The notes beneath the pieces are model-generated. The model saw only the letters and a list, made by a program, of their open reading frames with translations. It was not told where the DNA came from and made no database searches. This document shows, in pieces, positions 10,218 to 26,022 of a stretch of 64,000 nucleotides of DNA. Every line of letters starts with the position of its first letter. Positions within the stretch are counted from its first letter, which is position 1. This DNA is from Rhizobium rosettiformans (GTDB lineage: Bacteria > Pseudomonadota > Alphaproteobacteria > Rhizobiales > Rhizobiaceae), in assembly GCF_016806065.1 (NCBI RefSeq), contig NZ_CP032405.1:186001-250000 (forward strand), in the 5' to 3' direction. The position numbers and the translations under genes are program-made.

Positions 10218-11672
10218 TCAGCGCGGCAGCACGCTCTCACCCATCAGCGCCTCGTCGATGGCGCGAGCGGCCTGGCGTCCTTCGCGGATCGCCCAGACGA
10301 CCAGCGACTGGCCGCGACGGGCGTCACCTGCGACCCAGACCTTGTCGATCGAAGAACGGTAGTCCTTGTCGTTGGCAACGACATTGGTCGAGCCGCGACG
10401 GTCGGTGTTGAGTTCGAGCTTGCCGTCGAGATCCTTCAGCACGCTGTCGGTGAACGGGCCGGAGAAACCGATGGCGATGAAGGCGAGATCGGCCTTGATG
10501 ATGAACTCGGTGCCGGGGATCGGCTTGCGGCGCTCATCGACCTGGCAGCACTTCACGCCGGTCAACACGCCGTCTTCGCCGACGAATTCAAGCGTTGCCA
10601 CCTGGAATTCACGGTTGGCGCCTTCAGCCTGGCTGGACGAGGTGCGCATCTTGGTCGCCCAGAAGGGCCAGACAGCGAGCTTGTCTTCCGTCTGCGGCGG
10701 ACGCGGACGGATGTCGAGCTGGGTCACCTTGACGGCGCCTTGGCGGAAGGCCGTGCCGACGCAGTCAGACGCCGTGTCGCCGCCACCGACGACGACGACA
10801 TGCTTGCCGCCGGCAAGGATCGGATCGGCGGGCCAGCCGACGCTGTCGATGTTTTCGCGGCCGACGCGCCGGTTCTGTTGCACGAGATAGGGCATGGCAT
10901 CATGCACGCCATGGAACTCGACGCCGGGAATGCCAGCCTCGCGCGGCGTTTCCGAACCACCGCAATAGAGGACTGCGTCGTAATCCGCGCGCAGCTTCTC
11001 GACGGTCACGTCGACGCCGACATTGACGCCGCAATGGAAAGTGACATTTTCGCCCTGCATCTGCTCGACGCGACGATCGATGAAGTTCTTCTCCATCTTG
11101 AAGTCCGGAATGCCGTAGCGCAGCAGACCACCAGGCTTGGTTTCGCGCTCGTAGACATGCACCTCGTGGCCGGCGCGGCCGAGCTGCTGGGCGGCGGCGA
11201 GACCAGAGGGACCGGAGCCGATGATCGCGACCTTCTTGCCGGTGTGGATCGTTGCCGGCTGCGGCACGATGAAGCCGAGTTCATAGGCCTTGTCGGCAAT
11301 CGCCTGCTCGACGGTCTTGATGGCGACCGGCGTGTCCTCGAGGTTCAGCGTGCAGGCTTCCTCGCAAGGAGCCGGGCAAACACGACCGGTGAATTCCGGG
11401 AAATTGTTCGTCGAGTGGAGGTTGCGGATCGCCTCCTCCCACTTGTTGTTGTAGACGAGGTCGTTCCAATCAGGGATCTGATTATGCACCGGACAGCCGG
11501 TCGGACCGTGGCAATAGGGAATGCCGCAATCCATGCAGCGCGCCGCCTGCTTCGTCACCTCGGCATCCGACATGGGGATCGTGAATTCGCGGAAATGGCG
11601 GATGCGGTCGGAGGCCGGCTGATACTTCGCCACCTGCCGGTCGATTTCCATGAAACCTGTAACCTTGCCCAT
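10218..11672 (-). CDS. gltD: Glutamate synthase [NADPH] small subunit
   Basis: Beta subunit of GOGAT (484 residues), which feeds NADPH electrons through FAD and iron-sulfur clusters to GltB. The N-terminal cysteine region CMDCGIPYCHGPTGCP is followed by an FAD site (VAIIGSGPSGLAAAQQLG) and an NADPH site (VVVVGGGDTASDCVGTA). The start at 11672 has AGGAAAG upstream; an in-frame ATG at 11687 is less likely. The gene normally follows gltB directly; here a vapBC module lies between, with only 24 bases between the vapC stop and this start. Confidence 0.96.
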   Translation of the reverse strand: MGKVTGFMEIDRQVAKYQPASDRIRHFREFTIPMSDAEVTKQAARCMDCGIPYCHGPTGCPVHNQIPDWNDLVYNNKWEEAIRNLHSTNNFPEFTGRVCPAPCEEACTLNLEDTPVAIKTVEQAIADKAYELGFIVPQPATIHTGKKVAIIGSGPSGLAAAQQLGRAGHEVHVYERETKPGGLLRYGIPDFKMEKNFIDRRVEQMQGENVTFHCGVNVGVDVTVEKLRADYDAVLYCGGSETPREAGIPGVEFHGVHDAMPYLVQQNRRVGRENIDSVGWPADPILAGGKHVVVVGGGDTASDCVGTAFRQGAVKVTQLDIRPRPPQTEDKLAVWPFWATKMRTSSSQAEGANREFQVATLEFVGEDGVLTGVKCCQVDERRKPIPGTEFIIKADLAFIAIGFSGPFTDSVLKDLDGKLELNTDRRGSTNVVANDKDYRSSIDKVWVAGDARRGQSLVVWAIREGRQAARAIDEALMGESVLPR

Positions 11673-11696
11673 GTCTACTTTCCTCAATCTCCGCCG

Positions 11697-12092
11697 CTAT
11701 CGCAGCCAGTTCTCGATCTGCAATCCCGGAACCCGGGAAAACTCACTTTCGTTGTTCGTCACCAGCACAGCGTCCAGCGCCAGCGCATGTGCCGCGATCC
11801 AAAGGTCATTTGGACCTATATTTTTGCCCTGCCGCAGCGCCAGCCGGACATCGGCATACCGTTGGTCTGTCGGCAGTTGAAGGGGCGCCACATAGAGGCG
11901 CCGCGTTACCGCTGACACCTTCTGTGATAGCTCCTCGGAGCCATTCTTCTTCACGCCGTACCAGATCTCACCATGGGTGATGATGCTGATGAAGGCGTTC
12001 TCCTCGCCAACCTCGAGAAGCCGTTCGAGCACCTTTCCACGCGGATCCCTCACGATCGCCGAAACGATGTTGGTATCGAGCATGTACCGCAT
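11697..12092 (-). CDS. vapC: PIN-domain toxin ribonuclease (VapC family)
   Basis: Toxin of 131 residues belonging to the PIN-domain RNases of type II toxin-antitoxin systems. The acidic active-site positions are visible: LDTN (Asp6), GEIWYG (Glu), NDLWIAAHAL (Asp), then TNNESEF, where a second Asp is often seen and Asn/Glu stand here. Its ATG shares one base with the antitoxin stop codon (TGATG), so the pair is translationally coupled. The module lies inside the glutamate synthase operon. VapC enzymes usually cut initiator tRNA or rRNA; the target here is not known. Confidence 0.92.
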   Translation of the reverse strand: MRYMLDTNIVSAIVRDPRGKVLERLLEVGEENAFISIITHGEIWYGVKKNGSEELSQKVSAVTRRLYVAPLQLPTDQRYADVRLALRQGKNIGPNDLWIAAHALALDAVLVTNNESEFSRVPGLQIENWLR

Positions 12093-12364
12093 CAGATCTC
12101 GACCTCGCCGAGCGGTGCCAGATCATCGTCATTCTCAACGAAATCCTCTCCGCTCCAGGCTTCCGCCTGCTTGAGATACTCGATCAACCCGGCAGTCACT
12201 GCCGTCCGCATCAGGATTGAACCATCCGGTTGCCGCACCATGATGGCGCGATCACCTTCAAGATCGAATTCCTTCGGGATGCGAACAGCCCGGCTTCGAC
12301 CATTCTTGAAGATGGCGACTGCAACCTCGCCACCTTCACCAGCGTCTTTCAAATGCTCGTTCAT
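12092..12364 (-). CDS. vapB: AbrB-type antitoxin (VapB family)
   Basis: Antitoxin of 90 residues with a SpoVT/AbrB-like swapped-hairpin DNA-binding region (KNGRSRAVRIPKEFDLEGDRAIMVRQPDG) and an acidic C-terminal tail (SGEDFVENDDDLAPLGEVEI) that would neutralise VapC. The start at 12364 lies 14 bases inside a perfect palindrome that probably is its own operator. The longer open frame upstream runs into gltB and is not credible. Confidence 0.9.
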   Translation of the reverse strand: MNEHLKDAGEGGEVAVAIFKNGRSRAVRIPKEFDLEGDRAIMVRQPDGSILMRTAVTAGLIEYLKQAEAWSGEDFVENDDDLAPLGEVEI

Positions 12365-12378
12365 ATCGGACCCCACGT

Positions 12379-12405
12379 TTGTGATATGCTGACAGCATAT
12401 CACAA
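12379..12405 (-). promoter_or_regulatory. vapBC promoter/operator palindrome
   Basis: A perfect 12-bp inverted repeat with half site TTGTGATATGCT (12379-12390) and its complement (12394-12405) is separated by 3 bases. Read on the minus strand, each arm contains TATGCT or TATCAC, and the sequence TG-A-TATGCT forms an extended -10 element. It sits 14 bases upstream of vapB and 17 bases after the gltB stop, the usual position of a toxin-antitoxin autoregulatory operator. Confidence 0.75.
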
Positions 12406-12422
12406 CATTTGGACCTGTAGAA

Positions 12423-15400
12423 CTATTCCGCAGCCACGCCCATGCGCATACGTTCCATCTCCTCAAGCGCACGGCGGTATTCCACCGGCATGACCTTGCG
12501 GAACTTCGGACGATACTCGGCCCAGCTGTCGAGGATCTGCTTGGCACGGTTCGAGCCCGTATAGTGCAGATGGTTCGAGATCAGCTGGTAGAGGCGCTCC
12601 TCGTCGTGGCGGGTCATGTCGCCCGACACGTCAACAAGGCCCTTGTGCATGAGGTCGCCGCCGTGGTGGTGCAGCTTCTCCAGCATGTCGTCCTCTTCCG
12701 GAACCGGCTCGAGTTCAACCATGGCCATGTTGCAGCGCTTTGCGAAATCGCCGCTCTCGTCGAGCACGTAAGCCACACCGCCCGACATGCCGGCTGCGAA
12801 GTTGCGGCCGGTTTCACCGAGCACGACGACCACGCCGCCCGTCATGTATTCGCAGCCGTGGTCACCCACGCCCTCGACGACGGCAATCGCACCCGAGTTA
12901 CGCACAGCGAAACGTTCGCCGGCCACACCACGGAAATAGCATTCGCCGGAGATCGCGCCGTAAAGCACGGTATTGCCGACGATGATCGAGTTCTCCGCGA
13001 TGATACGGGCATTCTCCGGCGGGCGCACCACGATGCGGCCACCCGAAAGGCCCTTGCCGACATAGTCGTTGCCATCGCCCACGAGATCGAAGGTGATACC
13101 GCGCGCGAGGAATGCGCCGAAGGACTGACCGGCCGTGCCGTTCAGCGTGACATGGATGGTGTCATCCTTCAGCCCCTTGTGGCCGTAGCGCTTGGCGACT
13201 TCGCCAGAGAGCATGGCACCGGCCGAGCGGTCGACATTCTTGATATCGACGTCGAAGACGACAGGCTGCTTGGCCTCCAGCGCCGGCATCGCCTTCTCGA
13301 TCAGCTTGCGATCGAGAATGTCGATGATCGGATGGTTCTGACGCTCGGTCCAGTAGGTGGCGGACTTCGGCGCATCGACCTTGTGGAAGATCTTCGAGAA
13401 ATCGAGCCCCTTGGCCTTCCAGTGGGCGAGCATCTCGTCCTTTTCCAGAAGCTCGGAAGCACCGATGATCTCGTCGAGCTTGGTCACGCCAAGCGACGCC
13501 AGGATCTCGCGCACTTCTTCAGCCACGAAGAAGAAGTAGTTGATCACGTGCTCGGGCGTGCCCTTGAAGCGCTTGCGCAGAACCGGATCCTGGGTGGCGA
13601 CGCCAACCGGGCAGGTATTGAGATGGCACTTGCGCATCATGATGCAGCCGGCCGCAATCAGCGGAGCCGTCGCAAAGCCGAATTCGTCGGCACCCAGCAG
13701 CGCGCCGATAATGACGTCACGGCCGGTCTTCAGACCACCGTCGACCTGCAGGGCGATGCGTGAACGCAGACCGTTGAGGACCAGCGTCTGCTGTGTCTCG
13801 GCAAGACCGATTTCCCATGGCGAACCGGCGTGCTTCAGCGAGGTGAGCGGCGATGCACCCGTGCCGCCATCGAAGCCCGAGACCGTGATATGGTCGGCGC
13901 GTGCCTTGGCAACGCCAGCGGCAACCGTGCCGACGCCGACTTCCGAGACCAGCTTGACCGAGACATCGGCTTCCGGGTTGACGTTCTTCAGGTCGTAGAT
14001 CAGCTGGGCCAGATCTTCGATCGAGTAGATGTCATGATGCGGCGGCGGCGAAATGAGGCCAACGCCCGGCGTCGAATGACGGGTCTTGGCAACCGTCGCA
14101 TCGACCTTGTGGCCGGGCAGCTGGCCGCCCTCGCCGGGCTTTGCACCCTGGGCGACCTTGATCTGCAATACGTCGGCATTGACCAGGTATTCGGTGGTCA
14201 CACCGAAGCGGCCTGATGCGATCTGCTTGATCGCCGAACGCTCTGGGTTCGAGGAACCGTCAGCGAGCGGGAGGTAACGATCGCTTTCCTCGCCACCTTC
14301 ACCTGTGTTCGACTTGCCGCCGATCTTGTTCATGGCAATCGCGAGCGTGGTATGCGCCTCGCGGCTGATCGAGCCGAAGGACATGGCACCCGTCGAGAAG
14401 CGCTTGACGATATCGACAGCAGGCTCGACCTCGTCGATCGATACAGGCTTGCGTCCGAGGTCTTCGGCCTTCTTGATCTTGAACAGGCCACGGATGGTGT
14501 TCATCCTGAGATTGCTGTCATTCACCATTTCGGCGAATTCGCGGTATCGGTCCTGGCTGTTGCCGCGTACGGCATGCTGCAGCGACGCGATCGAATCAGG
14601 GCTCCAGGCATGGTTTTCGCCACGCATGCGGTAGGCATATTCACCGCCGACATCGAGCGTGCTGGCGAGAACCGGATCCTTGCCGAAGGCCGAGAGGTGA
14701 CGAGTGACCGTTTCCTCGGCGATCTCCTCGAGGCCGATGCCCTCGATGGTCGTCGCGGTGCCGAAGAAATACTTGTCGACCAGCGCCGATGAAAGACCAA
14801 TCGCGTCGAAGATCTGCGCTCCGCAATAGGACTGGTAGGTCGAGATGCCCATCTTGGACATGACCTTCAGAATGCCCTTACCCACAGCCTTGATGTAGCG
14901 ATAGACGACTTCGTCTTCAGACACTTCCTTGGGGAATTCGCCATGCTTGTGCATGTCGAGCAGCGTGTCGAAGGCGAGATAGGGGTTGATCGCCTCGGCG
15001 CCGAAGCCCGCGAGACAGCAGAAATGATGCACTTCGCGCGGCTCGCCGGATTCGACCACGAGACCGACCGAGGTGCGCAAACCCTTGCGGATCAGGTGGT
15101 GATGGACGGCAGCGGTCGCGAGCAGCGCCGGGATGGCGATCCGGTCCGGGCCAATCTGACGGTCGGAAAGCACGATGATGTTGTAGCCGCCGCGCACGGC
15201 CGCTTCCGCCCGCTCGCACAACCGATCGAGCATTTCCGGCATGCCTTCGGCACCACGGCTGACATCATAGGTGAAGTCGAGCGTCTTGGTATCGAAGCGA
15301 TCCTCGACATGACCGATCGAGCGGATCTTTTCCAGATCGCCATTGGTCAGGATCGGCTGACGCACTTCCATGCGCTTGGCATTCGCCATGCCTTCATGGT

Positions 15401-17141
15401 CGAGGATGTTCGGGCGCGGACCGATGAACGAGACGAGGCTCATGACGAGCTCCTCGCGGATCGGATCGATCGGCGGGTTGGTAACCTGAGCGAAGTTCTG
15501 CTTGAAATAGGTGTAGAGCAGCTTCGACTTCGTCGACATCGCCGAGATCGGCGTATCGGTCCCCATCGAACCAATCGCTTCCTGGCCAGTCGTCGCCATC
15601 GGCGACATCAGGAGCTTGGTGTCTTCGGTGGTGTAGCCGAAGGCCTGCTGACGATCGAGGAGCGACACGTCGCGGCGAAGCGCGCGCGGCTCTACCGGCT
15701 TCAGGTCTTCGAGGATCAGCTGGGTGCGATCCAGCCACTCGCGATACGGATGGCTCTTGGCAAGGCTCGACTTCACCTCTTCGTCCGAGATGATGCGACC
15801 TTCCGCCATGTCGATCAAGAGCATCTTGCCCGGCTGCAAACGCCACTTCTTGACGATGCGCTCTTCCGGCACCGGCAGAGTACCGGCTTCGGAAGCCAGG
15901 ATGACGCGATCGTCGTCAGTCACCAGATAACGGGCCGGACGCAGGCCGTTGCGGTCGAGCGTCGCGCCGATCTGGCGACCATCGGTGAAGCAGACGGCAG
16001 CGGGGCCATCCCACGGCTCCATGAGAGCGGCGTGATACTCGTAGAAGGCCTTCCGTTCAGGGCTCATCAGCTGGTTGCCTGCCCAGGCTTCCGGGATCAG
16101 CATCATCACGGCATGCGCGAGAGAATAACCGCCGCGCTGCAGGAACTCGAGCGCGTTGTCGAAACAGGCAGTGTCCGACTGGCCTTCGTAGGAGATCGGC
16201 CAGAGCTTGGAGATGTCATCACCGAACAGCGGCGAGGACACGGACGCCTGACGCGCCGCCATCCAGTTGACGTTGCCGCGCAGCGTGTTGATTTCGCCGT
16301 TATGGGCGACCATGCGGTAGGGGTGCGCAAGCTTCCACGACGGGAAGGTGTTGGTCGAGAAGCGCTGGTGCACGAGGGCAACGGCCGACTCGAAGCGCGG
16401 ATCGGCCAGATCCTTGTAATAGGCGCCAACCTGATAGGCGAGGAACATGCCCTTGTAGACGATCGTCGAGGACGACAGCGACACGGGATAGAAGCCGGTT
16501 TCCTGGCCGCCATACTGATCGTAGATGCGGTTGGAGATCACCTTGCGCAGCAGGAACAGGCGACGCTCGAAGGCGTCCTGGGTTGCGGCATCACGACCAG
16601 CACCGATGAAGACCTGGATCTGCCGCGGCTCGGTTGCAGCAATCTCGGGCGCTTTGGACAGCGACGAGTTGTCGACCGGCACGTCGCGATAGCCGAGCAA
16701 GCGCTGACCTTCGGACTGACAGACCTCGGCGATCACCTGCTTGAAATGCGCGATCTGCTGTTCGTCCTGCGGGAAGAAGAAGTGACCGACGGCATACTCG
16801 CCCGCCTTCGGCAGCGTGACACCCTGGGCGGCCATCTCTTCGCGGAAGAAGCGGTCGGGGATCTGCACGAGAATGCCCGCGCCATCACCCATCAAGGGAT
16901 CTGCGCCGACGGCGCCGCGATGGGTGAGGTTTTCGAGGATGAACAACCCGTCCTTGACGATCTGATGCGACTTCTGCCCCTTCATATGGGCGATGAAGCC
17001 AACGCCACAGGCGTCATGCTCGTTGCGAGGATCGTAGAGACCCTGTTTCAGAGGCAGACCGGTGCGCGCGATCGCCGTCTCGGCGACCGCTTCCGCACTG
17101 GCGGACCGCATGATCTCTTCGGATGACGGAATCTTCGTCAT
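12423..17141 (-). CDS. gltB: Glutamate synthase [NADPH] large subunit
   Basis: Alpha subunit of GOGAT (about 1572 residues), converting glutamine and 2-oxoglutarate to two glutamates. A short propeptide precedes the catalytic cysteine (Cys45 in [14 protein letters not shown]), the nucleophile of the glutaminase domain. The central and FMN-binding synthase domains ([50 protein letters not shown]) and the 3Fe-4S cysteines ([14 protein letters not shown]) follow, then the GXGXG beta-helix. The start at 17141 has a strong GGAGGT; the frame is open to 17270 but without a ribosome site. Together with gltD it forms the main ammonium assimilation enzyme. Confidence 0.97.
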
Positions 17142-17285
17142 GACCTTTACCTCCGTTGAAGCCGGACTGGCCGGGCTGATTGGACCCATCTCAGGCACTG
17201 ATGGGCGCCAGCGACGACCATCCAATCCTACGCGGATCGACTGACCACCCCATGACGCCCGAAAACACATCGCCTTCGAAACCGG

Positions 17286-17312
17286 AATTAGGTCAACTAG
17301 TCTGACCTAATT
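17286..17312. promoter_or_regulatory. Perfect palindrome upstream of gltB (probable operator)
   Basis: AATTAGGTCA at 17286-17295 and its exact complement at 17303-17312 flank a 7-base spacer centred on ACTAGT. It lies 145 bases upstream of gltB and 243 bases upstream of the divergent aldolase gene. The TGGTCA/TGACC-like half sites and spacing recall GntR/FCD-type operators, but no cognate regulator is encoded nearby. Confidence 0.55.
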
Positions 17313-17554
17313 TCTGCTGTTCCTATGACAGAAAGTAAACGCTCATGCAAGAGTTGCCCAGGAAAATTAACCGGACAAAGGATGCGAAATTACGACACAG
17401 GGGCAACGGGCGAAATTTTATTACGCCAATTGCCATGGCTGCATCACCTTATTGCGGAGTTGACACGCTTTATCCGCGTTACGGCCGGGCCACATTGATA
17501 GCCATGCGGAAAGAGATAAAGTCCCTGGCATCACTCCCGCCTCAGGATAATGCC
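17313..17554. other. Intergenic region between gltB and the aldolase gene
   Basis: About 240 bases with lower GC than the flanks. Apart from the palindrome next to it, I see an isolated TTGACA at 17460-17465 without a convincing -10 at the right distance. An open frame continuous with the aldolase gene begins at 17345 but has no ribosome site. Confidence 0.4.
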
Positions 17555-18601
17555 ATGCACTTCGCTTCAGACAACTGGTCCGGCGCCCATCCCAGGATCG
17601 CCGAAAGCCTCACCCGCCATGCCCAGGGCTTCGCCTCCGCCTATGGCACGAGCGACCTGGACAAGGCAGTGGAAGACCAGTTCAGCACCATTTTTGAACG
17701 CGAGGTTGCGGTCTTCTTCGTGGCAACCGGCACCGCTGCCAATTCGCTGGCGCTCGCCAGCGTCGCCAAGGCCGGAGGCGTCAGCTTCTGTCACGCCGAT
17801 GCACACGTCAACGCCGACGAAGGCGGCGCGCCGGAATTCCTGACCGGCGGTACACGGCTATTCGGCGTGGAGGGCGCAGAAGGCAGGATCGACCCACAGG
17901 CACTGGAGGCCGCGATAGCCCGTTTCGAGCCGGCGTCTCCCCATCACGGCCGCGCTATGGCCGTCACCGTGACCCAGGCGACCGAAGTCGGCACGGTCTA
18001 CACGCTCGAAGAGCTCGACAGGATCGCGGCGATCGCGAAGGCGCGTGACCTGCCGCTGCACATGGATGGCGCGCGATTCGCCAATGCCCTCGTCGCACTT
18101 GATGCAACGCCGGCAGAGATGACCTGGAAGCGCGGGGTCGACATTCTCTCCTTCGGCGGCACCAAGAACGGCTGCTGGTGTGCCGAAGCCATCGTCTTCT
18201 TCGATCCCGAAATGGCGGCCGACATGCCCTTCATCCGCAAGCGTTCCGCCCAGCTCTTTTCCAAGAGCCGCTTCATCTCGGCCCAGCTCGAGGCCTATCT
18301 CGACGGCAACCTCTGGCTGGATCTCGCGGGCCATTCGAATGCCATGGCCGACCGCCTGCGATCGGGTCTCGCAGCGAAGAACACCGCTCGCCTTGCCTGG
18401 GACACCACAGCGAACGAGGTCTTTGCCGTCATCGAAAAATCCTCTGCCGAACGTGCCCGTGCCAAGGGGGCGAAATTCCATGAATGGCAGCCCCCGCACG
18501 GATGGCTTCCCTTGCCGGCCGAGAACGAGGTCCTAGTTAGACTGGTGACCAGCTTTGCAACGACAGTAGAAGACGTAGATCAATTCTTAGAAGTCGTCTG
18601 A
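17555..18601 (+). CDS. ltaE: Low-specificity L-threonine aldolase-like PLP enzyme
   Basis: Beta-eliminating-lyase fold enzyme of 348 residues that would cleave threonine or allo-threonine (or related beta-hydroxy amino acids) to glycine and an aldehyde. PLP-site residues are visible: Lys204 in SFGGTKNG, Asp171 in LHMDGARFANAL, and FFVATGTAANSLAL. The start at 17555 gives the usual family length and has AGGA at a suitable distance; earlier in-frame starts (17345, 17503) would add an unconserved leader. It stands alone between gltB (divergent) and the bufferin operon. Confidence 0.88.
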   Translation: MHFASDNWSGAHPRIAESLTRHAQGFASAYGTSDLDKAVEDQFSTIFEREVAVFFVATGTAANSLALASVAKAGGVSFCHADAHVNADEGGAPEFLTGGTRLFGVEGAEGRIDPQALEAAIARFEPASPHHGRAMAVTVTQATEVGTVYTLEELDRIAAIAKARDLPLHMDGARFANALVALDATPAEMTWKRGVDILSFGGTKNGCWCAEAIVFFDPEMAADMPFIRKRSAQLFSKSRFISAQLEAYLDGNLWLDLAGHSNAMADRLRSGLAAKNTARLAWDTTANEVFAVIEKSSAERARAKGAKFHEWQPPHGWLPLPAENEVLVRLVTSFATTVEDVDQFLEVV

Positions 18602-18746
18602 GCCCAAGGTTTCTTACAAATAAATCGCGCACGTTTTACACAAAAAACCTTGATTTTTCAAAGACACAACTCCTCGACATGATGCGTTTGCCAGCCCCGT
18701 TGAGGGCTTCAACGACACCACGCATCACGATCCGAGGAGACATTTC

Positions 18747-19049
18747 ATGACCAAGACCGCCATCAATACGGCCGCCCTCGCCGCCGCCGTCACCATGGCC
18801 ATCGGCAGCGCCGCCCTTCTGTCCGGCCCAGCCGTCGCCCAGGAAAAGGAACGCTGCTTCGGCGTTTCCATGGCCGGCAAGAACGATTGCGCCGCCGGCC
18901 CCGGCACCACCTGCGCCGGCACATCCAAGGTCGATTATCAGGGCAATGCCTGGACCTATGTCGCCAAGGGCACCTGCACCGCGATGGCGCTTCCGGATGG
19001 CCGTATGGGCTCGCTCGAAGCCCTCGACCGCGACCTTCCGAAGGCTTGA
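18747..19049 (+). CDS. bufA: Bufferin precursor peptide (DUF2282, BufA1-type RiPP metallophore)
   Basis: Exported precursor of 100 residues. An N-terminal Sec-type signal peptide (residues 1-31, cleavage near AVA-QE) is followed by a core with four cysteines (37, 48, 56, 77) in the family motifs [25 protein letters not shown] and KGTCTAM. DUF2282 proteins are the substrates of a linked DUF692 (MNIO) enzyme. In Caulobacter they are reported as copper-binding bufferins in which cysteines are turned into thiooxazole heterocycles. GAGGAG sits 7 bases before the ATG. It is the first gene of a four-gene operon; unlike many RiPP leaders, the leader here doubles as the export signal. Confidence 0.93.
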
Positions 19050-19056
19050 GACAGCA

Positions 19057-19085
19057 CGGCACCTGCGGCTCGTCCGCAGGTGCCG
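19057..19085 (+). promoter_or_regulatory. Hairpin between bufferin precursor and maturase genes
   Basis: A perfect 12-bp GC-rich stem pairs 19057-19068 with 19074-19085 around a 5-base loop, beginning 8 bases after the bufA stop. It is followed by a pyrimidine stretch (CTTTCCTTTCC) rather than a T-run. Such a structure could partly terminate transcription or protect the bufA 3' end, giving more precursor than enzyme. Confidence 0.65.
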
Positions 19086-19126
19086 CCCCGCTTTCCTTTC
19101 CAGGACGAACGCTTGAGGAGCCGGCA

Positions 19127-20035
19127 GTGTCTGTCCACCCCGCCTTAGAGATCACCAACCGTCACGGCACTGCCGCCCGCCTCCCCTGCCGTGCAGGCGC
19201 AGGCTTCAAGCCTCAGCATGCCGACGCAATTCTCGCGGATGATTTCCGCATAGGCTTTCTCGAAGTGCATGCCGAAAACTACATGGGCGCCGGCGGGCAT
19301 CCACACCGCATGCTAACCCGCATGCGCGAGGACTTCCCGCTTTCGATCCACGGCGTCGGCCTCTCGATCGGCAGCCCGACCGGCCTGGACCCGGAGCATC
19401 TCGCACGCCTCAAGACGGTCGTCGACCGCTACCAGCCGGAACAGGTGTCGGAACATCTCGCCTGGTCCACCCATGAAAGCCACTTCTTCAACGATCTCTT
19501 GCCCGTACCTTATGACGCAGCGACGCTGAACAGGGTCTGCGACCACATCGACCAGGTACAGGAGACGCTAGGACGCCGGATCCTGCTCGAGAACCCGTCG
19601 ACCTATCTCGGCTTTGAAGCCTCCACCATGAGCGAGACGGACTTTATTCGGGCGATTGCGCGCCGCACTGGCTGCGGCCTTTTGCTCGACATCAACAATG
19701 TTCATGTGTCGGCCACCAATCACGGTTACGGCGCCCGCGACTATCTCGCCGATTTCCCACTCCTCTGCGTCGAGGAGATTCATCTGGCCGGCCATGCGGC
19801 AGATATCGACGATGCCGGTCTCCCGCTGCTGATCGACAGCCATGACCGCCCCGTCAACGATCTCGTCTGGGATCTCTACGCCCATGTCATCGGCAAGCTC
19901 GGCCCCCTGCCGACTCTCATCGAATGGGACAATGAAGTGCCCGACTGGTCCGTCCTCAAACGCGAGGCGCAACTGGCCGAGGCGATTCTCGACCGCCATG
20001 TCGCGGCCGATCTGGGACTTCGCCATGCGTCCTGA
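19127..20035 (+). CDS. bufB: MNIO-family bufferin maturase (DUF692)
   Basis: Multinuclear non-heme iron-dependent oxidase of 302 residues (DUF692, TIM-barrel related to the methanobactin enzyme MbnB), predicted to oxidise cysteines of the BufA core. Candidate metal ligands and active-site motifs occur in family order: EVHAENY (46-52), SIHGVG (His75), SEHLAW (Glu109-His110), LLENPSTYL (Glu155), [16 protein letters not shown] (Asp188, His193), EEIHLAGH (His219, His223), IDSHDRPV (Asp237, His239) and [10 protein letters not shown]. Start is GTG 19127 with GAGGAG six bases upstream; the open frame extends further back inside bufA. It overlaps bufC by 11 bases. Confidence 0.93.
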
Positions 20036-20804
20036 CCCAGTCTCCAGCGGCGCCTTCGCTGAAGCGCTTTTCGCACCGGATCTGCCTTCTCCGGAAGGGT
20101 TGACGGGTCGCGAAGAGACGCGACCGCAACGCCGCTTCTCGGTCTACCGCAACAATGTCACCGTCTCGCTGGTCGATGCTCTCGCTTCAATCTTTCCGAC
20201 GGTCCAGAACCTTGTTGGCGAAGACTTTTTTCGCGCCATGGCCCGATTCTATGTGGCCGCCCATCCGCCCACCTCTCCCCTGCTCTTCACCTATGGCGAG
20301 AGCTTTCCCGCGTTTCTCGAGTCCTTCCCGCCGGCGGCGGACCTGCCCTTTCTTGCAGATGTCGCCCGTGTCGAGCGGCTCTGGCTCGATGCCTATCATG
20401 CAGAGGACGTCGCCCCCTTCGATCCGGCAGCGCTTGCACAAATCCCGGCTGAGGAACTGGCAAACATACGCTTTCGGCCTCAGCCAGCGACGCGCATGAG
20501 CCGCCTCGGTCACGCCGCCGGCACCATATGCCGCCTTGACCGGGCCGGCATGCCGCTGGACGGCGTGAACCCGCTTCGAGAAGAAGCCGTGCTCGTCACC
20601 CGTCCGGCCTTCGATGTTTCGATCGAAATCCTGCCCTTGGGCGGGGCTACCTTCTTTGAAAGACTTCTCAGCGGCCATGCGCTCGGCGACGCCTGTCTCG
20701 CGGCCGGAGAGGAAGCCGCCGACATCCCTGCCCTTATCGGCCTTGCCCTCACTTCGGGCGCATTTGCCACGATCGACCTTCTCCCGGAAAGCGAAAGACC
20801 ATGA
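20025..20804 (+). CDS. bufC: BufC-type partner protein (DUF2063)
   Basis: Protein of 259 residues with the N-terminal DUF2063 domain ([44 protein letters not shown], then [20 protein letters not shown]), the constant companion of DUF692 enzymes. In characterised systems this partner recruits the precursor leader to the oxidase, comparable to MbnC. The start ATG lies inside the bufB 3' end and the stop overlaps bufD (ATGA), so all three are translationally coupled. Confidence 0.9.
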
Positions 20805-20826
20805 CATCTGCCATGACATCTGCCAT
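20799..20826 (+). repeat. 12-bp tandem duplication at the bufC/bufD junction
   Basis: The unit ccatgacatctg occurs at 20799-20810 and 20811-20822 and continues for four bases. It duplicates the bufD start codon and gives the protein two MTSA repeats. Confidence 0.85.
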
Positions 20827-21412
20827 CACAATCATCGAATACTACCGCCGCACGATCCGTCGGATGGAGCCCATGCTCGACCGTTGGCTGCTCGGGCTCT
20901 TCGCGCGCTTCGTCTTCCTGGCAGTGCTGGTGCCCTATTACGTCAACTCGGCCCTGACCAAGTTCGACGGCCCCTTCTCGATTGCCGATAGCGCCTACTA
21001 CCAGATCGCCCTGCCGGCCGTAGACGCAGCCGGCGGCGATGTCTCGGCCGTATCCTTCTTCCCCTGGGGGCTGATGGTCTTCGTCGGCTCCTATGGCGAA
21101 ATCATTCTGCCGTTGCTGCTCGTCGCCGGCCTTTTCACCCGCATGGCCGCCCTTGGCATGATCGCCTTCATCGTGGTGCAGAGCTTGACCGACATCCTCG
21201 TCCACAATGTCGATGCCGGCACGATCGGCGCCTTGTTCGACCGTTTTCCCGACAGCGTCATCCTCGATCAGCGCCTGCTCTGGATCTTCCCGCTCGCCTA
21301 TCTCGCCGTAAAGGGCGCGGGGATGCTTTCGCTCGACAAGCTGCTCTGCACGATCTGGACCCAACGGATGGCAGGACATGAAAAAAGCGGCCGGCTTTCG
21401 CCGACCGCCTGA
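20801..21412 (+). CDS. bufD: DoxX-family membrane protein of the bufferin operon
   Basis: Inner-membrane protein of 203 residues with four predicted helices (FARFVFLAVLVPYYV; WGLMVFVGSYGEIILPLLLVAGLF; ALGMIAFIVVQSLTDILV; LLWIFPLAYLAVKGAG), matching DoxX/DoxD. A DoxX gene closes many bufABC operons; its electron-transfer or redox role there is inferred. The first codons carry a 12-base tandem duplication (MTSAMTSA), so ATG 20813 is a second possible start. The last codons overlap the minus-strand terminator of hsp20. Confidence 0.88.
   Translation: MTSAMTSAITIIEYYRRTIRRMEPMLDRWLLGLFARFVFLAVLVPYYVNSALTKFDGPFSIADSAYYQIALPAVDAAGGDVSAVSFFPWGLMVFVGSYGEIILPLLLVAGLFTRMAALGMIAFIVVQSLTDILVHNVDAGTIGALFDRFPDSVILDQRLLWIFPLAYLAVKGAGMLSLDKLLCTIWTQRMAGHEKSGRLSPTA
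21381..21408 (-). terminator. Rho-independent terminator of hsp20 (minus strand)
   Basis: A 9-bp stem with one G-U pair (21387-21395 with 21400-21408) and a tetraloop is followed on the minus strand by TTTTTT (21386-21381). It is 31 bases after the hsp20 stop and lies within the last codons of bufD, which runs the other way. Confidence 0.85.
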
Positions 21413-21439
21413 CCAGGGGCCAGATCGTCTGGGAAACGA

Positions 21440-21910
21440 TCAGTTCACATGCGCCTCGATCGCCTTGGGCGCGCTGCCGAGGGGTTCTGCGGCAATCGAG
21501 ATCCGGCGCGGCTTCATCGCTTCGGGTATGTTGCGCAGCAGATCGATGTGCAGCAGGCCGTTCTTCAGCGAGGCTGCAGTGACTTCCACATGATCGGCCA
21601 GCTGGAAGCGGCGCTCGAAGGCGCGCTTGGCAATGCCGCGATAAAGGAATTCGCTCTGCTCGACCTTCTCGTCTTCGGCCTTCTCACCCTTGACGGTGAG
21701 CACATGGGCATGCGCCTCGATTGAAAGCTCGCTTTCGTCGAAGCCGGCAACGGCCATGGTGATCCGGTAGAGGTTCTCGCCGGTGCGTTCGATGTTATAG
21801 GGCGGATAGCTCTGGGCCTGCTCCGGCTGACCGAGGCTGTCCAGCATGGTGAACAGACGATCGAAACCGACGGTGGAACGGTAGAGCGGGGAAAAATCGA
21901 CGTGACGCAT
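21440..21910 (-). CDS. hsp20: Small heat-shock protein Hsp20 (IbpA-like)
   Basis: Alpha-crystallin-domain chaperone of 156 residues that holds unfolded proteins during heat stress. It has the IbpA-type N terminus (FSPLYRSTVGFDRLF), NIERTGENLYRITMAVAGF, the HVLTVKGEK segment, FLYRGIAKRAFERRFQLADHV, and the LLHIDLLRNIPEAMKPRRI C terminus. The start at 21910 has AAGGAGG. The upstream leader carries ROSE-like thermosensor features and a sigma32-type promoter. It is convergent with the bufferin operon. Confidence 0.95.
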   Translation of the reverse strand: MRHVDFSPLYRSTVGFDRLFTMLDSLGQPEQAQSYPPYNIERTGENLYRITMAVAGFDESELSIEAHAHVLTVKGEKAEDEKVEQSEFLYRGIAKRAFERRFQLADHVEVTAASLKNGLLHIDLLRNIPEAMKPRRISIAAEPLGSAPKAIEAHVN

Positions 21911-22008
21911 TGTGTCCTCCTTGAAGCGACGTTGGCGTTCTCTTGAGGCCGCTGGCATCCCGCTTGGGGCGATGCTGGCGGCGGTCCGCGGACCCTTCTG
22001 GCGTCCGC
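21911..22008 (-). promoter_or_regulatory. ROSE-like RNA thermometer in the hsp20 leader
   Basis: The roughly 100-base leader folds into consecutive hairpins: 22003-22008 with 21988-21993, then a 12-bp stem with a 2x2 internal loop (21971-21982 with 21948-21959). Next to the start codon, UCGCU (21929-21925) matches the ROSE consensus U(U/C)GCU and can pair across from AGGAGG (21921-21916). ROSE elements hide the ribosome site of rhizobial small heat-shock genes at low temperature. Length, position and motif fit; folding was done by eye. Confidence 0.75.
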
Positions 22009-22014
22009 AGAACC

Positions 22015-22044
22015 GATGTGGGAAATGCCTAGATCGAATTCAAG
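22015..22044 (-). promoter_or_regulatory. Probable RpoH (sigma32) promoter of hsp20
   Basis: On the minus strand CTTGAA (22044-22039) is followed after 16 bases by CCCACATC (22022-22015), close to sigma32 consensus. A start near 22008 would give the leader assigned to the thermosensor. Three more CTTGAA boxes lie upstream at 22053-22058, 22098-22103 and 22109-22114. Confidence 0.6.
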
Positions 22045-22129
22045 ATCTTCCGTTCAAGCGCCGCTCATCCCGCGATGAACTGCGGGTGAACGCCTGGTTC
22101 AAGCCGGGTTCAAGCATACTCATCTAGGT

Positions 22130-22235
22130 TTGGATCATCGGTTGTCTCGACCGACCGGGCCGGAGATATCGTCCCTTCCACTTCGGCCGGACTTCGCCGG
22201 AACCGCAGCCCTCCGTCTGCGGTTCCGGCTTTTTT
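22130..22235 (+). ncRNA. Candidate small RNA or leader attenuator ending in an orphan terminator
   Basis: No gene on this strand precedes the strong terminator at 22196-22235, so a short transcript from the intergenic region is implied. Upstream are a small hairpin (22138-22142 with 22150-22154) and a GGCCG/CGGCC stem (22158-22162 with 22184-22188). The terminator loop exposes CCCUCC, an anti-Shine-Dalgarno motif seen in many alphaproteobacterial sRNAs. The 5' end is a guess. It may instead be an attenuated leader of the hydrolase gene. Confidence 0.4.
22196..22235 (+). terminator. Strong rho-independent terminator without an upstream gene
   Basis: A perfect 13-bp stem pairs 22196-22208 with 22217-22229 around an 8-base loop (CCCTCCGT) and is followed by six T. 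It lies 75 bases before the hydrolase start codon. Confidence 0.9.
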
Positions 22236-22309
22236 CTTTGACTTGCGACCGGGCTGCGGCCTATCCCCAAGAGACGAGACGCGACTTCAACCGACAGGCA
22301 GTTGCAGGC

Positions 22310-23302
22310 ATGGACGCCATTCTTCACGCCACCCCCGGAAACCCGATTCCCGGCACGCCGCAGGTCGGCTACTTCGAGGGCCATCGCGGCATCCGCCTGC
22401 GCTACGCGGTCTTCCGGTCGAGTGCCCCGAAGATCAAGGGCACGATCGTCCTGTTGCATGGACGAAACGAGAGCATCGAAAAGTATTTCGAGACGATCCG
22501 CGAACTCAATGAAAGCGGCTTCTGGGTCGCGACCTATGATTTTCGCGGCCAGGGCGGATCAGAACGGCTGCTGAAGAAGGATCCGCGCCGAGGACATGTC
22601 GGCCGCTTCGACCATTATGTCCGCGACCTCGAGATCTTCCTCGAACAGATCGTGCTGCCCGACACCCGTCTGCCCTTCTTCCTGCTCGCCCACTCCACCG
22701 GTGGCCTGATCGCCTTGAAGGCGGCTCCACGTCTTTCCAACCGCATCGAGCGCATGGTGCTGGCGGCCCCCTTCGTCGGCCTCGGCGGCCAGAAGACATC
22801 GCCGGAGAATATCCGCCGGATTGCGACCCTCGCAAGCTTCACCGGTTTCGGCGGCATTTCGCTGACGAAGGACGAGCCCTTGAAACCCTTCGAGGGAAAT
22901 CCGCTGACATCGGATGCCCTGCGCTTTGCCCGCAACCAGCGGCTCATGCTCGACCATCCGGAACTGGCACTTGGCCCACCCACGGCGCGCTGGCTCTACG
23001 AGAGCCAGAAGGCGATCGACTCCATCCGCAAGCCGGGCCATCTCGCATCGATCACGGTGCCGACGGTGATCATCGCGCCCGGCAATGACCCGATCGTGCC
23101 GTATCACTATCAGGAGTCCATGGCGCAATATTTCCGCGCCGGCCAGCTAGTGCCGGTCCCCGGCGCACGCCACGAAATCTTGCAAGAGCAGGATCGCTAC
23201 CGCAAACAGGCGCTAGCCGCGATCTTTGCCTTCATGCCGGGCGGCGAGCCCGACGCGGCAGATCCCGCCGAAGAACTGACAGTCTCCACCCTGGAGGCCT
23301 GA
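22310..23302 (+). CDS. Alpha/beta hydrolase (lysophospholipase / serine aminopeptidase S33 type)
   Basis: Hydrolase of about 330 residues. It has the fold's oxyanion strand (TIVLLHGRNESIEKYFETI), the nucleophile elbow LAHSTGG (a GHSxGG variant with Ala at the first position), a late Asp in IAPGNDPIVPYH and the catalytic His in GARHEILQEQDRYR. The pattern matches the Hydrolase_4 / PldB-like group, which acts on lysophospholipids or monoacylglycerols. ATG 22310 is preferred; the open frame back to 22130 crosses a terminator hairpin. Confidence 0.88.
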   Translation: MDAILHATPGNPIPGTPQVGYFEGHRGIRLRYAVFRSSAPKIKGTIVLLHGRNESIEKYFETIRELNESGFWVATYDFRGQGGSERLLKKDPRRGHVGRFDHYVRDLEIFLEQIVLPDTRLPFFLLAHSTGGLIALKAAPRLSNRIERMVLAAPFVGLGGQKTSPENIRRIATLASFTGFGGISLTKDEPLKPFEGNPLTSDALRFARNQRLMLDHPELALGPPTARWLYESQKAIDSIRKPGHLASITVPTVIIAPGNDPIVPYHYQESMAQYFRAGQLVPVPGARHEILQEQDRYRKQALAAIFAFMPGGEPDAADPAEELTVSTLEA

Positions 23303-23312
23303 GCGACCGAGC

Positions 23313-24089
23313 TTAGCCGCGCTTCAACATGTCCATGGCCTCAGCATGCACGGCCCTGGATCCGGCCGCAATGATCGAACCGCCAGCCTCCGGTCGCCCG
23401 CCGTCCCAGGTGGTGATCACGCCGCCCGCCTGCTCGATGATCGGGATCAGCGCCCCAACGTCATAAGGCTTCAAGACTGTCTCGATGACGAGATCGATAT
23501 GACCGGCAGCGAGCAGGCAATAGGCATAGCAATCGACGCCGTAGCGGAAGAGCTTGACCTTGTCCTGCACCGCCTCGAAACGCTCGACTTCCCAATCCTT
23601 GAAGAGATGCGGCGAAGTGGTGAAGAGGATCGCGTTTTCGAGCGATCCGCAATCGCGGACGGCATTCTGCCGCTCGCCGTCAGGACCAAAATACCAGGAG
23701 CGCTCGCCATCGGCATAGTAGCGCTCACCGGTAAACGGCTGCTCCATCAGCCCCATGACCGACCTACCCTTCTCCTGAAAGCCGATCAGCGTGCCCCAGA
23801 CGGGAACGCCGGAAATGAAGGCCCGTGTGCCGTCGATCGGATCGATGACCCAGAGATGATCGCTATCCATGCGGATATTCTCGTGCTCTTCACCGAGAAT
23901 GCCATGGGTCGGAAATTCTGCTTCGATCAGCTTGCGGATCGCGATTTCGGCCGCCTGGTCGCCTTCGGTGACCGGGTCGAAACCGGCTTTCTCCTTGTTG
24001 ACCACGGACAGGCCCGAGCGAAAGCGCGGAAGGGTCTCGGCCCTGGCGGCATCGGCCAAGCGAAAGAAGAAATCACGATCAGGGCGCAT
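23313..24089 (-). CDS. hisN: Inositol monophosphatase family phosphatase, probably histidinol-phosphatase
   Basis: Mg-dependent phosphatase of 258 residues. The family metal-site motifs are present: GEEHEN (Glu), WVIDPIDGTRAFISG (the DPIDGT core), and GVDCYAYCLLAAGHIDLVIE near the end. The ARAETLPRFRSGLSVVNKEKAGFDPVTEGD N-terminal pattern and DGTRAFISG resemble HisN-type histidinol-phosphate phosphatases more than SuhB, so a histidine-biosynthesis role is likely but not proven. It converges on the hydrolase gene with a 10-base gap. The MmgR sRNA promoter lies behind its start. Confidence 0.87.
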   Translation of the reverse strand: MRPDRDFFFRLADAARAETLPRFRSGLSVVNKEKAGFDPVTEGDQAAEIAIRKLIEAEFPTHGILGEEHENIRMDSDHLWVIDPIDGTRAFISGVPVWGTLIGFQEKGRSVMGLMEQPFTGERYYADGERSWYFGPDGERQNAVRDCGSLENAILFTTSPHLFKDWEVERFEAVQDKVKLFRYGVDCYAYCLLAAGHIDLVIETVLKPYDVGALIPIIEQAGGVITTWDGGRPEAGGSIIAAGSRAVHAEAMDMLKRG

Positions 24090-24252
24090 GGGAAAATCCG
24101 TCGTCTGGAGGGAGTTCCGTCTTAATGCCAGTCGCGGGGAAAGAAAACCACCGTCGACCGCCTTCTTCGACCTCACCGGACGCCCGCGAACAGGCCCCAG
24201 AGCACCGAATTGCGTAAATTTTGGCCTTGCTCAAAAAAGCACCAAGATTCAT

Positions 24253-24281
24253 CTTGACAATGGTGCACCGCAACATCTAAC
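24253..24281 (+). promoter_or_regulatory. Promoter of the MmgR-like sRNA
   Basis: CTTGAC at 24253-24258 and TCTAAC at 24276-24281 are 17 bases apart, fitting the rhizobial sigma70 pattern. Initiation would be near 24287. Confidence 0.65.
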
Positions 24282-24286
24282 GTCTC

Positions 24287-24367
24287 AATCACAGTCTTCT
24301 GACTGTAAATACCCTCCTTGGGTGTTTCCTCCCTAGACTTAACCGCGCCACGAGCGCGGTTTTTTTT
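24287..24367 (+). ncRNA. mmgR: MmgR / alpha-r8 small RNA (suhB motif)
   Basis: An approximately 80-base transcript bounded by a sigma70-type promoter and a terminator (24342-24348 with 24354-24360, then eight T). Its centre contains CCTCCTTGGG, then TTTCCTCCCT (24325-24334), the ultraconserved single-stranded motif of the alpha-r8 family, and TAGACTT before the terminator. The Rfam suhB motif is known next to inositol-monophosphatase-type genes, as here. In Sinorhizobium meliloti MmgR is about 77 bases, Hfq-bound, nitrogen-responsive and limits polyhydroxybutyrate granules. Confidence 0.85.
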
Positions 24368-24415
24368 GCCCGGCACAGAGCGCCGAGAGCCGCAACATCC
24401 GGGAATGGGAAAAAC

Positions 24416-25291
24416 TTACTCGGCAGCGAGGGCCCGGTCGCCGGCATAGTCGGCGACGAAGTCTGCCATCTGCTCCATGAACACCGCGAGCGAGCCGGCC
24501 AGCGCATCGAAGTCCGAGCGCTTTTCGAGCGTCGTCTCGTCGATATAGATCGAGCGGTTGACCTCGATCTGCAGAGCGTGCAGCCCACGGGCCGGACGGC
24601 CGTAATGCTCGGTGATGAAGCCCCCTGCATACGGCTTGTTGCGCACGGCCGTAAAGCCGAGATCCTCGAAGAACTGCAAAGCGGCCTGACTGAGCTCGGC
24701 GGAAGCACTCGTCCCGTAACGGTCGCCGACGATGAAATCGGGCTTCAGGCCGCTCCCGGCCACCCGAATATTGCCGGGCATGGAATGGCAGTCGATCAAC
24801 ACGCCGAAACCGAACATCGCATGGGTCCGGGCAATCAGCCGGCGCAGACAGACATGATAGGGCTTGTAACAACTCTCGATCCGCTCCATGGCGACCGACA
24901 GCGGCATGCGGCGCTCGTAGATCTCCATATTCTCGGCAACGATGCGCGGGATCGTGCCGAGCCCACCCGCGACACGCGCGGAATTGCTGTTGGCAAAGGG
25001 CGGTAGCGGATCGGAAAACATCCGGGGATCGAGCTCGTAGGGCTCGCGGTTGACGTCGACATAGGCGCGGGGGAAATGCGCAACGAGCATCGGCGCGCCG
25101 AATCCGGGCGCAGCCGAGAACAGCTCGTCGACATAATGATCCTCTGACCGGCGAATCGAAATTTCGTCGAGTCGCGACTCGCCGAGGAAGGTCGTCGGAT
25201 AGTGACGGCCGCTATGCGGGGAATTATAGACGAATGGAATGGTCTGGATCGCGGGCTCTCGAACCTCAAACAGCTCGATTTCGTTGGTCAT
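24416..25291 (-). CDS. N-formylglutamate amidohydrolase family protein
   Basis: Metal-dependent amidohydrolase of 291 residues. Visible family motifs are VYNSPHSGRHYP (metal His), RSEDHYVDELF, AHFPRAYVDVNREPYELDPRMF, VLIDCHSMPG and LQIEVNRSIYIDE. Members deformylate N-formylglutamate in histidine breakdown, but no hut genes are near, so the substrate is uncertain. It is divergent from cpdR with about 200 bases between, an arrangement I associate with rhizobial genomes. Confidence 0.9.
   Translation of the reverse strand: MTNEIELFEVREPAIQTIPFVYNSPHSGRHYPTTFLGESRLDEISIRRSEDHYVDELFSAAPGFGAPMLVAHFPRAYVDVNREPYELDPRMFSDPLPPFANSNSARVAGGLGTIPRIVAENMEIYERRMPLSVAMERIESCYKPYHVCLRRLIARTHAMFGFGVLIDCHSMPGNIRVAGSGLKPDFIVGDRYGTSASAELSQAALQFFEDLGFTAVRNKPYAGGFITEHYGRPARGLHALQIEVNRSIYIDETTLEKRSDFDALAGSLAVFMEQMADFVADYAGDRALAAE

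Positions 25292-25947: not shown

Positions 25948-26022
<75 letters not shown>

Follow-up and report, generated by a model that had tools for sequence, protein, structure and literature searches.

The locus encodes a Buf1 bufferin operon

Four tightly packed plus-strand genes, bufA-bufB-bufC-doxX, occupy positions 18747-21412 of a 64,000-nucleotide stretch of the Rhizobium rosettiformans chromosome (hereafter the window), and a first-pass annotation made from the sequence alone had described them as a complete operon for a bufferin, a copper-binding ribosomally synthesized and post-translationally modified peptide (RiPP). The coordinates of the four coupled genes proved exact, and all frames are open, with overlaps of 11 bases between bufB and bufC and of 4 bases (ATGA) between bufC and doxX. 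The family search that the annotation had proposed gave matches above cut-off for DUF2282, DUF692 (as MbnB_TglH_ChrH), DUF2063 and DoxX (Table 1), and all family tests that were run are in keeping with a Buf1 bufferin operon. Published work gives the core of a bufferin cluster as precursor, multinuclear iron oxidase (MNIO), DUF2063 and DoxX genes and describes their order as strict (PMC12452194); the order found here, bufABC followed by doxX, is that of the Buf1 bufferins. The genome (5.14 Mb, 5 contigs) yielded a single MNIO match and a single DUF2282 match, both within the buf operon. To judge from its families and their arrangement, the four-gene set is a complete Buf1 bufferin operon, ordinary and of an already known type.

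Table 1. Features of the buf locus in window coordinates
Feature	Position	Strand	Description
upstream element	18650-18679	+	TTGATTT at 18650-18656, A at +29 (18679); promoter-like
possible leader stem-loops	18680-18687 with 18720-18727; 18691-18697 with 18704-18710	+	weak in window (z -0.97)
bufA	18747-19049	+	100 aa; Buf1 (DUF2282) precursor; PF10048 84.9 bits, cut-off 22.4, 3.6e-24
stem-loop between bufA and bufB	19057-19085	+	12-bp stem; gap z -2.12
bufB	19127-20035	+	302 aa, GTG start; MNIO (DUF692) enzyme; PF05114 match 3.8e-104
bufC	20025-20804	+	259 aa; DUF2063 94.1 bits, cut-off 27.2, 6.4e-27
doxX	20801-21412	+	203 aa; DoxX-family membrane protein; 28.2 bits, cut-off 23.6, 3e-6

The same four families in the same order make up CC3254-CC3257 of Caulobacter (DUF2282-DUF692-DUF2063-DoxX; PMC3511200), and in another rhizobium, S. 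meliloti, genes for a membrane protein, DUF692 and DUF2063 stand in a row (SMb20530-SMb20527), an operon assigned in 2018 to the regulon of RpoE7/ECF16 (ECF, extracytoplasmic function; PMC6180224). The oxazolin/fontiphorin systems (HvfABC, FonABC) and the captophorins likewise combine an MNIO with a DUF2063-type partner and have copper-associated thiooxazoles (PMC13097082), but their precursors are of the EGKCG-repeat kind, unlike BufA, and with the HvfB model BufB stays short of the cut-off (229 versus 360 bits). The precursors of methanobactin (MbnABC) and pearlin (TglAHI) differ in having leader peptides rather than Sec signals (PMC12452194).

Precursor, enzyme and partner proteins

BufA matches PF10048 and has cysteines at all four of the positions that had been assigned to the core of a DUF2282 precursor, 37, 48, 56 and 77 (codons at 18855, 18888, 18912 and 18975). 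The same four are kept in relatives, the first being lost in L069; in the bufA of this Bradyrhizobiaceae metagenome-assembled genome, it is replaced by glycine (EKGYGV), and therefore the outer disulphide could not form there. The first-pass annotation had drawn attention to ERCFGV in place of EKCYGVA. The variant is present but ordinary, because the arginine is also seen in L008 and L016, and phenylalanine is common at its position in congeners. Its suggestion that the core cysteines as a whole are oxidized to thiooxazoles was too broad: in Buf1, modification is reported at the two central cysteines, with the outer pair joined in a disulphide (PMC12452194). When this pattern is applied here, thiooxazoles are predicted at C48 and C56, with a bridge between C37 and C77. 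Residues 1-31 resemble a Sec signal peptide, with AVA/Q after residue 31.

BufB scored 377 bits against the NCBIfam model MNIO_BufB (NF050167, cut-off 310), which identifies it as an MNIO bufferin maturase, and 348 bits against MbnB_TglH_ChrH (cut-off 25). Its iron ligands H75, H110, E155, D188, N191, H219, D237, H239 and E266 (9/9) map one to one onto those of TglH, so that the metal-ligand motifs ascribed earlier to a DUF692 multinuclear iron oxidase are indeed in place. D268 is the likely catalytic base, as judged by eye from the 3bww alignment, and Asn73 of TglH lies opposite a gap in BufB.

The expected DUF2063 partner and DoxX protein were both matched above cut-off, DoxX weakly. BufC is a PME-type 1 partner in which DUF2063 (residues 10-98) is joined by an RRE-type domain, a fold of this kind being seen at about residues 148-252 of the predicted model. 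The model resembles TglI and NGO1945 in fold comparison, although a BufC profile found no match among PDB sequences. The HvfC model on BufC and the HvfX model on DoxX gave matches only below their cut-offs. At the start of doxX, a 12-base tandem repeat (20801-20824) offers a second candidate ATG, 12 bases from the first (MTSAMTSA).

Proposed function

We propose, with a probability of roughly 0.85, that this is a chromosomal Buf1 bufferin operon whose product, modified at C48 and C56, holds copper in the periplasm. The reading draws on the gene set and its order, the intact active-site residues, the predicted fold of BufC and a locus common to relatives, all seen here. By analogy with studied relatives, BufA would be modified, exported and loaded with copper: it would be made with a signal peptide, BufC would bind the precursor and present it to BufB, and the iron cluster of BufB would oxidize C48 and C56 to thiooxazoles, after which the peptide would be exported by Sec and C37 and C77 would close the disulphide. 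The product would then hold copper in the periplasm, and DoxX would serve as an accessory membrane protein. Bufferins have been described as chelators of copper that help cells to grow in its presence (PMC12452194), and the Caulobacter operon is copper-induced, the sigF mutant being copper-sensitive (PMC8224329); copper buffering in R. rosettiformans is what we infer by extension.

Several points weigh against this proposal. The signal peptide of BufA was judged by eye alone. Within NCBIfam, BufA found no match above cut-off; its one weak match, to BufA2, reached 17.8 bits against a cut-off of 60, and the BufA2-type precursor of a Buf2 bufferin was thus not found either. The DoxX match is weak. 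In C. metallidurans, the homologous gig cluster left copper resistance unaltered, where other determinants may mask an effect (PMC8224329), and neither S. meliloti RpoE7, which drives the DUF692-DUF2063 operon, nor its target responded to H2O2, Cd or chromate (PMC6180224). Finally, the genome holds two CueR genes beside apparent copper ATPases, so that copper would be handled by several systems, the bufferin among them.

It is improbable, in our estimate, that a modified peptide of the bufferin type protects mainly from another metal or from oxidative stress rather than from copper. Responses other than to copper are on record, of the Caulobacter operon to chromate and cadmium (PMC3511200), of gig to gold and silver (PMC8224329) and of Bradyrhizobium EcfF, an ECF16 factor, to H2O2 (PMC3420878), yet the growth defect of the sigF mutant came from copper only and not from chromate or cadmium (PMC8224329), and it is as copper chelators that bufferins are described (PMC12452194).

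A conserved locus in relatives

Within the genus, DUF2282 is matched in 43 of 63 genomes, that of R. rosettiformans included; a sample of 247 genomes from the family gave matches in 132, or in 68 of 109 genera. A protein search with BufA returned at least 7999 matches at E <= 0.001; among the matches listed, a Rhizobium sp. G187 protein 89% identical to BufA is already named BufA1. The 20 genomes of the genus with no DUF2282 match, together with one of the 43 others (G026) in which the match spans only 20 positions, would fit a decaying or silent relic, but in the window each of the four genes has an open frame, the frames are coupled and no catalytic residue is lost, and we regard this as very improbable.

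A BufB locus scan, from which the best 80 of 124 loci were used, revealed a gene order common to many relatives: gltB (minus strand), threonine aldolase, bufABC, doxX, hsp20 (minus strand) and hydrolase, where the names gltB, aldolase, hsp20 and hydrolase are our reading of the open reading frames of the window and not family library matches. A midpoint-rooted BufB tree was built from 50 sequences, those of the window and of 49 among the 78 loci for which BufB coordinates were available. One group in it (support 100/98) takes in 30 of the 34 gltB-type rows, and the remaining four (L053, L055, L058 and L064) are placed among the 16 other rows. The rows nearest to the window are Agrobacterium albertimagni AOL15, Rhizobium sp. 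RU33A, Rhizobium sp. TH135 and Peteryoungia aggregata.

Searches for a linked SigF/NrsF pair

The Caulobacter operon is under SigF/NrsF, with sigma-F promoters of the form GTAACC-N16-CGAA (PMC3511200), and the S. meliloti operon is linked to its own sigma factor gene and has an ECF16-driven GTAAC...CGAA promoter (PMC6180224). The window operon differs from both. GTAACC-N15-18-CGAA has no match in the window (0.16 expected by chance), and the relaxed GTAAC-N15-19-CGAA is absent before bufA. The best NrsF score in the R. rosettiformans genome was 21.6 bits, below the cut-off of 26.8, and tblastn gave no NrsF-like match in the window slice 11001-24500. A congener open reading frame adjoining NrsF, presumed from its position and by eye to be the sigma factor, found 8 matches in the R. 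rosettiformans genome at 27-34% identity, the best one at 27%, and no close homologue. Because the NrsF, sigma factor and sigma-F promoter searches came out negative, nothing points to regulation by a linked SigF/NrsF pair.

Presence of NrsF varies across the genus: it scored above cut-off in 23 of 63 genomes and, by hand count, in 19 of the 43 with DUF2282, leaving 24, R. rosettiformans among them, in which it does not reach the cut-off. Sixteen genomes of the genus (e.g. G006, G012 and G013) have two DUF2282 matches, and all 16 have NrsF above cut-off, again by hand count. To compare loci, we used 109 upstream regions of 300 bases, window included, which were not de-duplicated, so that some genomes occur twice. 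An NrsF match lay within the locus for none of the 62 gltB/aldolase-linked regions versus 18 of the 47 others, although NrsF may be missed in some because many of the compared loci are only about 3 kb long. Absence of a linked NrsF is thus the rule at the gltB-type locus. The promoter pattern GTAAC-N15-19-CGAA was found in 30/47 other regions versus 3/62 gltB-linked ones (L013, L102 and L103).

A conserved upstream element at the gltB-type locus

A different sequence stands upstream of bufA in the gltB-type loci. TTGATTT is present in 59 of the 62 gltB/aldolase-linked upstream regions versus none of the 47 others. As for the three exceptions, L058 has two bufA genes and carries the string before the first, and L107 (TTGACTT) and L109 (TTTATTT) differ from it by a single base at an apparently matching place, as seen by eye; L061, among the 47 other regions, carries TTTATTT. 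More loosely, the conserved stretch takes in CCA-N-TTGA, and all representatives (23/23, chosen among TTGATTT carriers) have an A at +29. The long form TTGATTTCCANNTGA is single-copy in 12 of 12 genomes, which were chosen for a bufA carrying it, with a reversed control of 0. The R. rosettiformans genome has six near-matches with up to 2 mismatches besides that at buf; four of these were viewed by eye, with no family test, and the site was located in three, with no recognisable copper gene. In open-licence literature we found no description of the gltB-linked buf locus or of the TTGATTT element, and the main text of a survey of MNIO gene clusters has no word beginning "rhizob" (PMC12452194).

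With no NrsF above cut-off, no close sigma factor homologue, no sigma-F promoter and a different element upstream, the earlier surmise that regulation may differ from that in Caulobacter holds at the level of sequence, as does the statement that no ECF sigma or copper regulator gene is adjacent, the two CueR genes being elsewhere in the genome and the slice around buf being free of NrsF-like matches. It is more likely, we infer, that an unlinked factor acts on the TTGATTT element.

A quite plausible competing account, if one we put at somewhat under even odds, is that TTGATTT is the -35 of a housekeeping-type promoter without a dedicated switch, or that a CueR protein drives the operon. TTGATT is, by eye, similar to a -35 hexamer, but there is no conserved -10-like hexamer at the usual spacing, and conservation exceeds a hexamer, covering TTGATTTCC and the invariant A; the single-copy long form also weighs against this account. 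As to CueR, the two genes (170.7 and 172.9 bits, cut-off 147.4; G000:C1:2789561-2789938, L199, and G000:C3:51143-51520, L198) lie far from buf, each with a copper ATPase-like sequence upstream (by eye), and short ACCTT and AAGGT strings occur upstream of bufA. CCTTCC and GGAAGG are absent there, and CueR control of buf was set aside, although it is still plausible: a dyad pattern that likewise had no match also found nothing beside the two CueR genes themselves and is a weak test.

Inverted repeats of the type TCAC-N6-GTGA precede bufA in some loci of the gltB type and in many of the ECF16 type (e.g. L034, L052 and L060), with none at the gltB locus of the genus of the window, and are possibly the site of a second, shared regulator. 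A stricter form gave 24 matches in 8 Bradyrhizobium genomes versus 3 for the reversed pattern; among 10 of the 24 loci that were read, it lay near an NrsF-like protein (by eye) in L173 and L192. An upstream open reading frame that runs over the start of bufA was set aside, since relatives do not preserve its frame.

Predicted RNA structure in the leader and after bufA

The leaders of 23 representatives fold more stably than shuffled sequence (mean z -2.07, 11/23 below -2), as compared with +0.20 for equal bufA coding stretches. The signal comes mostly from relatives, since the window leader itself is at -0.97. A two-helix structure in 18 leaders of the group of the window has modest support: its paired fraction was reached in 24 of 500 shuffles and its covariation score in 17 of 500, but changes on both sides of a pair (4 versus 3.2 expected) and pair types (12 versus 12.4) are at chance level. 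Anti-Shine-Dalgarno pairing reached p <= 0.05 against shuffles in 27 of 52 unique leaders, uncorrected for kinship, and we make no such claim for the window because the start site may be downstream of the 5' arm (18670-18676).

Between bufA and bufB, 21 of 33 gltB-type gaps fall below z -2 (mean -2.01) versus 1 of 16 others (mean -0.44), where the longer gltB-type gaps (median 63 versus 38.5 bases) may favour their scores. Paired changes in the stem were noted by eye among close relatives. The stem-loop may keep bufA mRNA above bufBC mRNA. A search of the buf region against Rfam yielded nothing above the gathering score, and over 17200-22200 there were chance-level matches only, at E up to 5.

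The gene set being ordinary and widespread, its interest to specialists lies in the switch rather than the peptide: many rhizobia carry a recently described copper-binding RiPP class at a chromosomal locus that is conserved among them and where, at the level of sequence, the SigF/NrsF switch of Caulobacter is missing, and the common upstream element offers a direct handle for finding the regulator. We suggest, tentatively and as the less probable case, that the Rhizobiaceae have a SigF/NrsF-independent class of bufferin operon at one conserved chromosomal locus, governed by an undescribed regulator through a once-per-genome element and tuned by structured RNA in the leader and after bufA. If such a class is real, its copper sensor would be new.

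Neighbouring features

An mmgR (suhB, RF00519) small RNA gene lies at 24304-24374 on the plus strand (63.3 bits); among 10 relatives scanned, 9 likewise have mmgR 3' of buf and about as far from it; a tRNA gene follows at 25948-26019. BufA-like DUF2282 sequence also occurs on 249 plasmid records, including 60 from Escherichia and 17 from Klebsiella.
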